From the NCBI GenBank assembly GCA_030629485.1, contig DAOVOW010000005.1:1-15718 (forward strand): a stretch of 15,718 nucleotides of DNA, read 5' to 3'. The position numbers were made by a program, and so were the translations under genes. Shown here piece by piece: positions 12,129 through 15,718 of this stretch. Each line of letters begins with the position of its first letter. Within the stretch, counting starts at the first letter, position 1. The notes under the pieces were generated by a model. It worked only from the letters and a program-made list of their open reading frames with translations, was not told the DNA's origin and searched no databases. Source of the DNA: a bacterium (GTDB lineage Bacteria; Zixibacteria; MSB-5A5; GN15; FEB-12).

Positions 12129-13754
12129 TTACGGAGTATCCTCCTCGAAGACCAGCGACTTGTTGCGGCCGCTCTCTTTGGCTTTCAGGAGTGCCATATC
12201 GGCAGCGTGAATCATTTGCCTGGAATCATCGCCATGATCTGGGAATATGGCGCCGCCTAACGACACCGTGCACCTGAGCGGTTCATCGGCATTGTCGATC
12301 CGAAATTTGGTCGTGGAGATCGCATTCTGCAGCCGCTTCATGAACCGGCGACAAGTTTCCTGATCGGCCTCCGGCATAATGACACAAAACTCATCCCCCC
12401 CATACCTGGCCACCACATCGATAGAGCGAATACTATTGCGAAGAATCTCACCGAGCTGTTTTAGAATAGCGTCACCGGCTAGGTGGCCGTAAGTGTCGTT
12501 GGTCGCCTTGAGTTCATCGAGGTCGAACAGAATAAAGGCCAGTTTGCGTCCGTAACGCTGGGCGCGGGAGATCTCCTCGTCGAACCGCCGGAGGAAATAC
12601 CGTTGATTTGCCAGGCCGGTCAGGTTGTCGGTGTAAGACAACTCCTCGATGCGCACGAAGGACTCGGCATTGTCGATAAGGTCGCCGACACGGCCGCGCA
12701 ATAGATCGAGGCGATCACGCACCATCGAGGGTTCCCCCCCACCCCTCCAGGCCAGGACTCCCTCGCGCTGCGGTGCCAATGAGTAGCTGGTGATATAATC
12801 AAGCCCTCCATCGATCAGAGCTTCTATAGCCTTATTCAACGATTCGTCCCGGAACTTGAGGTCGTTCAAACGCACGAGTTTTTTATCCTCGAGTCGTGAT
12901 ATCAAGCTGCTCAGCCTTAACGTCTCCGGTACATTGGTCGCCCCACTGATACCGTGTGTTAAGACGCGCAATTCGTCGTTGGCCGGTCGATAAATAAACG
13001 CCATGCGTTCCAACTGAAGTTCGGAGACGATTGCCTCAACGATCTGTGCCACGATTGTCTCGGGATTGCGGTGTCGGACCAGTTTTATCATAGCGCTCGA
13101 ATCCGATGACTGGAGTCGGCGTGTTTCCGTTTCGGCGGTTGACAGTTTTCTCTGTAAATCTTCGTTACGTGACTCATGCCACTTGACATGATAAGCCGCC
13201 GACAAACATTGGGCCAGGCTCGCCACCAGTGACTTGAACGAGTGCTCGCGTGTGGAAAGAGTGCTGCGTATGAAGTAAACACCGTATAGATTGTCTCGCC
13301 AATAGATTGGGAAAAAGGTATCAAACCCCAGTTTCACCAATGTTTCATAGGTGTCGCCCGGAAGAGCCGACTTAAGATGAAAGAGGCATCGCGGCAGGTA
13401 ATCGGCTCGCAGGCATTCGCCGAGATCCTTGGTATAGGGCAATCGGAAATCGCGCCGATCGACCTTGGCAAGACCGTGACTGTAATTGTGCCTCAACCAG
13501 CCCCGTTTTTTTCTCAAGAAGAGAATTCGCTCACAGCCGAACGATTGTTTGAGCAAATCCGATACTTTGGCCGCCACCTGTCCTATTACGCCGTCACGGC
13601 TGTTGGCTTGCAACAGAGCAGCGAACTCCTCAAGATCCAACCGCCGTAGTACCGCCAGCCGTTTTCTGTCATCACTGATGCGGCGAATCAGCACCAGCGT
13701 CAGCAACACGACCAGACAGACCAGAATAAATATAAGAGTGTGCTCAGTGATCAT
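12129..13754 (-). CDS. Membrane-anchored GAF-GGDEF diguanylate cyclase
   Basis: A 541-aa protein that would make cyclic di-GMP from two GTP. An N-terminal membrane helix lies at about residues 6-23 (TLIFILVCLVVLLTLVLI). A first GAF-like sensor region (about 50-190), a short coiled coil (195-215) and a second GAF-like region (about 225-365) follow. The GGDEF domain spans about 370-535. The substrate and metal site is complete: FDLDELKATND (Asp411 to Asp420), GHLAGD and YGGDEF (452-456). The inhibitory I-site RSID (443-446) lies five residues before GGDEF, so product feedback is likely. It follows the STAS locus and has its own predicted promoter. The export operon begins 121 bases downstream; c-di-GMP commonly promotes exopolysaccharide, so local control is a reasonable inference. 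The signal sensed by the GAF regions is unknown. Confidence 0.93.
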   Translation of the reverse strand: MITEHTLIFILVCLVVLLTLVLIRRISDDRKRLAVLRRLDLEEFAALLQANSRDGVIGQVAAKVSDLLKQSFGCERILFLRKKRGWLRHNYSHGLAKVDRRDFRLPYTKDLGECLRADYLPRCLFHLKSALPGDTYETLVKLGFDTFFPIYWRDNLYGVYFIRSTLSTREHSFKSLVASLAQCLSAAYHVKWHESRNEDLQRKLSTAETETRRLQSSDSSAMIKLVRHRNPETIVAQIVEAIVSELQLERMAFIYRPANDELRVLTHGISGATNVPETLRLSSLISRLEDKKLVRLNDLKFRDESLNKAIEALIDGGLDYITSYSLAPQREGVLAWRGGGEPSMVRDRLDLLRGRVGDLIDNAESFVRIEELSYTDNLTGLANQRYFLRRFDEEISRAQRYGRKLAFILFDLDELKATNDTYGHLAGDAILKQLGEILRNSIRSIDVVARYGGDEFCVIMPEADQETCRRFMKRLQNAISTTKFRIDNADEPLRCTVSLGGAIFPDHGDDSRQMIHAADMALLKAKESGRNKSLVFEEDTP

Positions 13755-13803: not shown

Positions 13804-14106
13804 TCAATAAAGGTCTCGACGTCGGGCCCACACGAACCTGAATCGCGAACGCCGAGTAAGAACGCGATTGTTCCTGAGAATACGGAACACACGCCACCAG
13901 CCGACATCGCTGAAGAACGGTTGACTCTGTAACTCACGGGTCATCTCGCGAATCGACGCGAAGGGATCCTCGCATACCATTGAAAGCACCTCGCTTTCCA
14001 AGTCCCCTCCCCCGTGGAATTGATTTTCAACTTCTACCTGATGGCGCTGTGGTCGATGACCTGCGGCGAACTGGTCATCAAGAGTCACACGCGTCAAAGT
14101 GGCGTT
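13804..14106 (-). other. Out-of-frame C-terminal extension of the STAS gene, HTH-like and basic
   Basis: Continuing from the A tract in the neighbouring frame, 100 codons stay open to a TGA at 13804. The first 35 or so residues are a polar linker. The remainder looks like a folded small domain: ESEVLSMVCEDPFASIREMT, then VGWWRVFRILRNNR and a very basic RRSRFRFVWARRR. Three predicted helices with a basic tail suggest a helix-turn-helix or winged-helix DNA-binding domain, but I cannot name a family. The frame has no plausible start of its own: the only ATG (14220) lies inside the STAS gene and gives low-complexity out-of-frame residues. It joins the STAS frame exactly when one A of the ten-A run is removed, giving a 225-aa fusion. 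Confidence 0.7.
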
Positions 14107-14482
14107 TTTTTTTTGCTCCGATTTCGACCGTCTCGCCGAAATCGGAGCGAGCATCCTCCACCGACTCGTAGGCGCGGAGAACGTTGTCGAATTCGAGCAA
14201 GTCGTAGATTTCGTAAACATTCGGTATCATATTGGCCAGTTTGATATCACCGTCATTGGCCCGAACGTCACGGATATTGGAGATGAATATCCCCCAACCG
14301 GCCGATGAGACGTAGTCCACCCCGGCCAGATCGACCACTATTCGGTAACGTCCCCTTTTGAGAAGCGAATCGAACACCTCTTCCAACTGGGAAGCCGTGG
14401 CGGTATCTATCACGCCATCGACACGTACTTCCGAGGCGTCGTCCCGACTTCCTTCGGACAATGATATGGCTATGCCTTCCAT
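14078..14482 (-). CDS. STAS-domain protein, SpoIIAA/RsbV-type antagonist (frame as written)
   Basis: As written, a 134-aa protein that is mostly one STAS domain (residues about 5-112). Its core RIVVDLAGVDYVSSAGWGIF places Ser59-Ser60 at the position phosphorylated by anti-sigma kinases in SpoIIAA/RsbV (DSSG there). It could therefore be dephosphorylated by the PP2C protein encoded just upstream. In partner switching the unphosphorylated form binds and titrates a kinase; no such kinase lies in the window. The frame reads through the ten-A run (14105-14114 on the plus strand) as KKK and stops 8 codons later with a non-domain tail RHFDACDS. One A fewer would give a longer STAS-HTH protein. ATG 14482 has only GAGG about 13 bases upstream, a weak site. 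The gap to the phosphatase is 136 bases. Confidence 0.88.
   Translation of the reverse strand: MEGIAISLSEGSRDDASEVRVDGVIDTATASQLEEVFDSLLKRGRYRIVVDLAGVDYVSSAGWGIFISNIRDVRANDGDIKLANMIPNVYEIYDLLEFDNVLRAYESVEDARSDFGETVEIGAKKKRHFDACDS
14105..14114 (-). repeat. A10 homopolymer in the STAS coding strand, candidate slippage site
   Basis: Ten A residues in a row on the coding strand (ten T on plus), the longest homopolymer I noticed here. It lies exactly at the junction where the STAS frame ends early and the extension frame begins. Such runs slip during transcription, during replication, and in some sequencing methods. Confidence 0.9.
14115..14148. repeat. Perfect 12-bp inverted repeat abutting the A10 tract
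   Basis: Arms GCTCCGATTTCG (14115-14126) and CGAAATCGGAGC (14137-14148) pair perfectly around a 10-base loop. In the mRNA of the STAS gene this forms a 12-bp stem-loop ending directly at the first A of the ten-A run. It lies within codons for SDFGETVEIGA, so it is constrained by protein coding yet fully symmetric. Confidence 0.9.
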
Positions 14483-14618: not shown

Positions 14619-15718
14619 TCAGAGTCGTCGGCCGCGCTCGGTGGGATCGTCCACTGAGATCAACTCCGAAGTATCGTGCCGTCCCATTATTGCAGCGGTT
14701 GTGATTGGTACGGCGCGCGCGATTATGAACGTGATATCGTCGGTCTGTTTGGTAAATCCTGCGAAATCATCAATCTCACCCACGACCTCCTCGCTCAAGC
14801 TGTTGAGTTCAGGTCGGGCAGCGAGGCTGAACCGATTGCTCAGGAGTTCGGCCAATCGATCCAGGCCGAATTGGCGGCCACGCGGATCGGCGGCCTCGGT
14901 AATGCCATCGGTGTAGATGAAGAAACCGTCGCCGTCTTCCAGTTTGATACTGACCTGTTCAAGGTGATCCTCGAAGCTGCCGTTCAGCGACACAGGAAGC
15001 CCCAGCGGCATGCCGCCGGGGTTGATACGATCCATCAGCCCACTGTTGGCGCTGTAATAGAGCATCGGATTATGCCCCGCCGAAACGATGTCGATCCGGC
15101 CCAGGGTCGCGTCGTATATGACCAGCATGACAGTGATAAACATACCGCTCGGCATATTATTGCAGAGGTAATCGTTGACCCGGACCAGCGTATCGGCGGC
15201 GGAGGTGGCGCCGACTGAACTGATCTGAATCACGGTGCGCAGCATCGACATCACCAGCGATGCCGGCACTCCCTTGCCTGATACGTCGGCTACCACCAGA
15301 CAGTAGCGCTCCGGGGCAATCTCGAAGACATCATAGAGATCACCACCGACAATGGATGCGGCCCGGTAGAAGGCGTCCAGTTCGAGCCCCGGAATATCCG
15401 GCAGACGTCGGGGCATCAGCGTCTGCTGGATCTGGGAAGCGAGTTCGATTTCCTTAGCCATCTTCTCGCGGGCCACGATGTTTTCACGATCCTGACGCAA
15501 ACGGGTCATCATCTCGTTGAAAGCCCGGGAGATCTCAAAAAACTCCTCGGCTCCCTCCAGCGGCAGTTCCGACTCCAGATCGCCGGAGGTGAACCGACGT
15601 ACCCGCCGAGTAATCTGTACGATCGGTCGCACGAAGTAATTCGACAGCATGTAAACTCCCAGGGCTCCGAACAACAACAGCATAAGCGTAAGCTGAATCA
15701 CGCGATAGCGAGCCTGTC
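14619..15718 (-). CDS. HAMP-SpoIIE/PP2C serine phosphatase of RsbU type, N terminus beyond window
   Basis: The C-terminal 365 or so residues of a membrane sensor phosphatase. The frame is open to the window edge; the GTG at 15701 sits within a membrane helix, so the real start is outside. Counting from that codon: a hydrophobic helix (about 2-20), a HAMP linker (about 21-73, RPIVQITRRVRRFTSGDLES), a coiled coil ending in ASQIQQTLMPRRLP, and the PP2C domain (about 105-330). Metal-binding motifs are complete: GGDLYDVF (Asp121, Asp124), ADVSGKGVPA (Asp139), SAGHNP, YTDGITEA (Asp265) and TDDITF (Asp321, Asp322). Such enzymes dephosphorylate STAS antagonists, and the next gene encodes one. A missing N-terminal part, probably a first helix and periplasmic sensor, would set the input. 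Confidence 0.93.
   Translation of the reverse strand, partial: QARYRVIQLTLMLLLFGALGVYMLSNYFVRPIVQITRRVRRFTSGDLESELPLEGAEEFFEISRAFNEMMTRLRQDRENIVAREKMAKEIELASQIQQTLMPRRLPDIPGLELDAFYRAASIVGGDLYDVFEIAPERYCLVVADVSGKGVPASLVMSMLRTVIQISSVGATSAADTLVRVNDYLCNNMPSGMFITVMLVIYDATLGRIDIVSAGHNPMLYYSANSGLMDRINPGGMPLGLPVSLNGSFEDHLEQVSIKLEDGDGFFIYTDGITEAADPRGRQFGLDRLAELLSNRFSLAARPELNSLSEEVVGEIDDFAGFTKQTDDITFIIARAVPITTAAIMGRHDTSELISVDDPTERGRRL

Follow-up and report, generated by a model that had tools for sequence, protein, structure and literature searches.

The 15,718-nt window analyzed here, from a Zixibacteria genome, encodes a STAS protein whose reading frame closes shortly past a run of ten As, with an HTH-like extension continuing in a neighboring frame. 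The same STAS-HTH protein occurs in relatives (Candidatus Zixiibacteriota) and, judging from their sequences, the run at its junction is fixed while the frame state across it is free. The explanation we consider probable is programmed transcriptional slippage at A10, which would give both STAS alone and STAS-HTH from any DNA frame; several genes of this lineage would use A10 in this way. The retention of the run while the frame across it changed repeatedly suggests a deliberate stutter of the RNA polymerase making a short and a long protein.

The locus is laid out as follows:
14619-15716, minus strand: HAMP-SpoIIE phosphatase gene, the upstream neighbor, which runs off the window end
14482-14078, minus strand: STAS ORF of 134 aa, the proposed short product, a STAS domain with a Lys-rich 8-residue tail after the run
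14105-14114, minus strand: A10 run, exactly ten As at the STAS/HTH junction, the proposed slippage site
13804-14106 (stop included), minus strand: HTH-like C-terminal part, 100 residues past the run, read in the +1 frame with respect to STAS
12129-13754, minus strand: GGDEF protein gene, the downstream neighbor

The STAS ORF matched Pfam STAS (PF01740, E 1.6e-16), and this match, together with the fold search of the fused model, identifies a STAS domain, as expected of an anti-sigma factor antagonist. An earlier reading of this DNA without database searches (the sequence-only reading) had the STAS frame ending 8 codons past the A10 run, and saw a likely real protein in the neighboring frame open to 13804; the first point was confirmed at the coordinates above, and the second was borne out by homologues in relatives with a conserved HTH-like domain. 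In the window, the third frame closes after 3 codons, and the frame reached with one A fewer stays open for 100 residues. Among run-bearing named loci with enough flank, the HAMP-SpoIIE neighbor is kept in 39 of 40 and the GGDEF neighbor is present in 41 of 41. No kinase gene was seen within the window. Beyond the GGDEF gene, ORF translations read as apparent polysaccharide export genes.

To place the window among its relatives, we scored 53 of 55 genome loci and 78 of 80 named loci, i.e., 131 loci of which 98 are distinct, most of the genomes compared being metagenome assemblies. L074 was left out as another protein, L075 (which has A10 on a cut contig) was unscored, as were the named loci L200 and L209, on contigs without the HTH, G046 was not included, and L211, with A8, was classed as having no run. 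Overall, an A9-A11 run stands at the STAS/HTH junction in 60 of the 98 distinct loci (A10 in 51, A9 in 8, and A11 in 1). Relative to STAS, the HTH of these run-bearing loci is in frame in 24 (offset 0), in the -1 frame in 32 (offset 2), and in the +1 frame in 4 (offset 1), the window being one of the last. All 38 loci without an A9-A11 run are plain in-frame fusions, hence no out-of-frame member lacks the run, and no run of 7 or 8 As was found among out-of-frame members. The STAS-HTH fusion posited by the sequence-only reading is real, as the plain state of these 38 loci; on its proposed check of whether relatives have a continuous frame and a conserved run, the run is conserved in 60 of 98 loci and the frame is continuous in 24 of the 60 run-bearing loci and broken in 36. 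Outside the run, AAA makes up 55% of the Lys codons of run members and 53% of those of the other loci, so that ten As are not demanded by Lys-Lys-Lys alone.

The closest kin of the window (G001, G005, and G006, with 89.6-91.2% DNA identity over the HTH part) would have their frames brought together by one A more, and the window by one A less (or two more), a one-base difference in frame offset that rests on a single assembly. The earlier claim that skipping one A joins the two frames therefore stands for the window's genome, but not for 32 of the 36 out-of-frame loci, which need one A added. Another pair of close kin, G036 (A10, in frame) and G008 (A9, out of frame), have identical flanks, and their differing run lengths indicate that replication slippage occurs too. 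Similarly, the database proteins P0139 (223 aa, fused) and P0157 (129 aa, split) are identical at 99 of 100 STAS core residues, and their frames part right after the Lys run.

We built a quick tree of the 98 loci from STAS and HTH residues, with the run excluded (36 of its 95 inner branches are open). Run presence changes once on this tree, on a branch with support 82 that is not starred, while frame state changes at least 14 times among the 60 run-bearing loci; with starred branches only, the -1 state still requires 7 changes, the in-frame state 5, and the +1 state 3. Past the run, a stop is reached within 12 codons in both non-HTH frames in 56 of the 60 run-bearing loci, compared to 21-30% at control sites (51 of 180 within the HTH, 54 of 180 within STAS, and, in run-less loci, 8 of 38 at the corresponding position). 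Counted relative to the HTH frame, one of the two ends 3-4 codons past the run in 42 of 60 loci, and the second ends after 10 codons in 31 of 60. The locus hence displays what is expected of slippage genes, i.e., a long A run (about nine or more) in a coding region conserved among homologues (60 of 98 loci), and an extension that is conserved as protein or followed by nearby stops in the other frames.

When 61 genomes were searched for the extension, 54 had a match at E ≤ 1 and 7 had none; the weakest matches are not meaningful, some of those at E ~0.02-1 being due to chance. The open frames of good matches form two size sets, ~100-120 aa and ~213-286 aa, and ten residues (D, P, F, W, W, F, L, R, R, and F) do not vary among 22 diverse members. 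When split off, the extension is represented in the protein database by unnamed or “hypothetical protein” entries (33 matches). A chance reading frame, which the sequence-only reading would have accepted had there been no homologue, or none on a STAS protein, is ruled out by the homologues found on STAS proteins of relatives. Between the window and its kin, dN/dS was 0.06-0.10 (NG86) and 0.14-0.19 (YN00) for STAS, and 0.21-0.29 (NG86) and 0.46-0.55 (YN00) for the HTH, so that the latter is under clear constraint according to NG86 and moderate constraint according to YN00. A PDB sequence search with the HTH profile returned only 2ia0_A (E 0.12), a fold search using the fused model hit its STAS part only, and one using the HTH by itself yielded no strong match; DNA binding by the HTH-like extension is predicted. 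In the STAS part, a Ser-Ser ahead of AGWG is invariant in 45 fused members, and is the presumed site of phosphorylation, by comparison with SpoIIAA/RsbV.

Past A8, A runs become scarce in the genomes counted. Counting exact runs on both strands of 12 genomes, we found 4052 A7, 1004 A8, 140 A9, and 47 A10, i.e., successive ratios of 0.25, 0.14, and 0.34. A9 runs were about half as frequent in these genomes as predicted by the A7-to-A8 step, and there may be more programmed sites among the 140 A9 sites. Across 24 fully read genomes (11 of the 12 run-count genomes, with 34 of 42 A10 sites in the four genes, and 13 further), 67 of 80 A10 sites lay in STAS-HTH, coaBC, dnaX, or mnmE, and the remaining 13 were diverse. 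The single-contig genome G064 carries four A10s, one in each of these genes. Outside STAS-HTH, the loci inspected are:
coaBC loci: L092 (window's genome, C396), L076, L080, L102, L111, L216-L245, L276-L295
mnmE loci, the gene behind yidC: L091 (window's genome, C47), L077, L081, L088, L246-L275
dnaX A10 sites: L078, L083, L098, L103, L113, and ten more

coaBC had a match in 52 genomes, from which 50 loci were inspected (G049 and G051 excepted) and 49 counted, L294 being incomplete. In 37 of the 49, an A9-A11 run separates the CoaC and CoaB parts; 26 of these are in frame and the other 11 in the -1 frame. The 12 loci without a run comprise 9 in frame, 2 in the -1 frame, and 1 in the +1 frame, which indicates that splits arise without a run too. 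For mnmE, 15 of the 30 loci inspected (out of 57) carry A9 or A10; in 13 of these 15, the run is preceded at 4-11 nt by an ATG (12) or GTG (1), and the body of the gene is in the -1 frame. In 8 of the 13, the stretch examined additionally contains a start codon that is in frame. In dnaX, the A10 lies within a long open frame and both other frames are closed within 13 codons in all 15 sites read. Elsewhere, an A10 stands between two overlapping frames of an apparent Mg-chelatase gene, as judged from its residues (L108, G023:C3, ~position 1526), and a PP2C-like phosphatase ORF terminates at an A10 run (L112, G013:C1, ~position 1529).

Sequence comparison shows a conserved run, a free frame, closure of the two other frames, and a conserved HTH; the slippage itself, its extent, and the roles of the products are inferred. 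RNA polymerase at A10 would release mRNAs with differing A counts, so that the sequence past the run would be translated in all three frames: one would yield STAS-HTH (~225 aa), and the two others would stop shortly past the run and yield STAS alone with a short Lys-rich tail. Since both products would arise from in-frame or out-of-frame DNA, the DNA frame would be free to drift as long as the run is kept near ten. By analogy with known partner-switch systems, and given the neighboring genes, the SpoIIE phosphatase would dephosphorylate the STAS serine, STAS alone would engage a kinase or anti-sigma partner, and STAS-HTH would bring the same switch to DNA, with the short/long ratio set by the run. 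Several features fit transcriptional slippage: runs that are never shorter than nine As and mostly exactly ten, a frame that is free and can be +1, closure of the other frames, and scarce A9. Excerpts of PMC3711429 and PMC1088944 treat dnaX slippage at such runs as already known. Baranov and others, in parts of PMC1088944, describe selection against runs as visible at nine in many genomes, with the caveat that run avoidance alone cannot separate transcription from replication slippage.

The main rival, which we regard as unlikely, is programmed -1 ribosomal frameshifting on A_AAA_AAA within the run of a faithful mRNA, whereby, as for E. coli dnaX, a fraction of short product would come from in-frame DNA and a fraction of long product from -1 DNA. 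The lean toward the -1 frame among out-of-frame loci (32 of 36 for STAS-HTH, 11 of 11 for run-bearing coaBC, and 13 of 13 for mnmE with a nearby start) fits the insertion of one A, nucleotides being gained at runs of nine As or Ts according to passages of PMC5009743, and is predicted equally by -1 ribosomal shifting, and in-frame loci also close quickly in the -1 frame. However, a -1 frameshift gene would always have its second product in the 0 or -1 frame, which is the case for 56 of the 60 loci; the other 4, including the window, are in the +1 frame, through at least three separate changes forced by starred branches. All 60 runs also hold at least nine As, although seven As suffice for a ribosomal frameshift heptamer. 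Such heptamers are listed in portions of PMC3711429. As for stimulators, a weak test since these vary, an upstream Shine-Dalgarno-like motif was found in 12 of 60 loci only, and no general downstream RNA structure was detected (mean z -0.31, with 4 of 60 under -2).

Phase variation, in which replication would alter the run length and cells would switch between STAS alone and STAS-HTH, appears improbable. The one-A difference between G036 and G008 is what it would produce, as is the near-identical core of P0157 and P0139 with a differing frame past the Lys run, but it is weakened by the narrow range of run lengths (51 of 60 are A10), by the closure of both alternative frames at the same places irrespective of the STAS frame, and by the retention of the run in in-frame loci. 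It would also have to account for the same run in dnaX, coaBC, and mnmE, housekeeping genes for which random switching-off is unlikely. Even less probable are two ordinary overlapping genes, with the HTH made separately by re-initiation or translational coupling: an ATG, GTG, or TTG is found in the HTH frame near the junction in 16 of the 36 out-of-frame loci, and the start codon overlaps the STAS stop in 7 of 36 (a TTG in the window's three kin), but 20 of 36 have no start codon in the stretch examined, ATG occurs in 1 of 36 only, a Shine-Dalgarno-like motif precedes the start codon in 0 of 36, and the 24 in-frame run-bearing loci are plain fusions. Finally, a homopolymer error from sequencing or assembly of the window's genome, or a change that recently inactivated the gene there, would explain why its frame offset is one base off that of its three closest kin; we give this hardly any credence, as dozens of independent assemblies share the run and a break of frame, and KK is found in the tail of 107 of 108 short STAS proteins among those retrieved. 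With 60 run-bearing loci, 36 of them out of frame, and an HTH that is still conserved, sequencing error and pseudogene are rejected for the family, if not strictly for the one-base offset of the window. Among the four options listed by the sequence-only reading, programmed slippage is thus favored, inactivation and error fall away at the level of the family, and phase variation is weakened.

If transcriptional slippage operates here, A10 in three different DNA frames is predicted to lead to the same two products, and what is preserved at this recoding site would be the run, with the DNA frame left to drift. Annotation would then render one functional protein as a short STAS protein and a stray unnamed or “hypothetical” ORF. 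We further propose, as a tentative extension that we hold somewhat short of probable, that A10 serves the whole lineage as a common regulatory element: runs of nine or more As would be few in its genomes outside a small recurring set of genes (STAS-HTH, coaBC, dnaX, and partly mnmE), in which an insertion-prone RNA polymerase would split output between frames. In that case, product ratios could co-vary with slippage modifiers such as nucleotide levels and elongation factors, and CoA synthesis, replication, tRNA modification, and a phospho-switch would be tied to one physical parameter.

To our knowledge, no STAS regulator split by slippage is known. Within the open-licence PMC literature, we found no work on transcriptional slippage with anti-sigma or STAS proteins, on Zixibacteria with an anti-sigma factor antagonist, on slippage in Zixibacteria (Zixibacteria with frameshift gave only an unrelated title), or linking coaBC to transcriptional slippage or phosphopantothenoylcysteine to slippage and frameshift. 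The closest parallels come from other genes. As described in sections of PMC1088944 and PMC5009743, the A9 of Thermus thermophilus dnaX resembles the present case in being a coding A run with a long and a short product and nearby stops in both other frames, and in Chlorobi, dnaX genes consist of two ORFs out of frame at A10, as here (excerpts of PMC3711429). Compared with both, the protein here is another one, the run is fixed with the frame at 0, -1, or +1, and several genes of the lineage share it. In Shigella, the regulator mxiE and spa13 yield the regulator or longer product only after transcriptional slippage; those are not STAS proteins, and the parts of PMC1088944 and PMC5009743 that cover them describe no lineage-wide set. 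Programmed frameshift genes of the Mg-chelatase type have a poly-A between two protein parts in different frames in six genera, with frameshifting measured (passages of PMC3711429); STAS-HTH is a different gene, and L108 in G023 is the one that resembles Mg-chelatase by its residues. Relative to the anti-sigma factor antagonists SpoIIAA and RsbV, the locus differs in that no kinase gene was seen in the window, and STAS-HTH adds an HTH-like extension at its C-terminus, connected by a disordered link in which the A10 lies.
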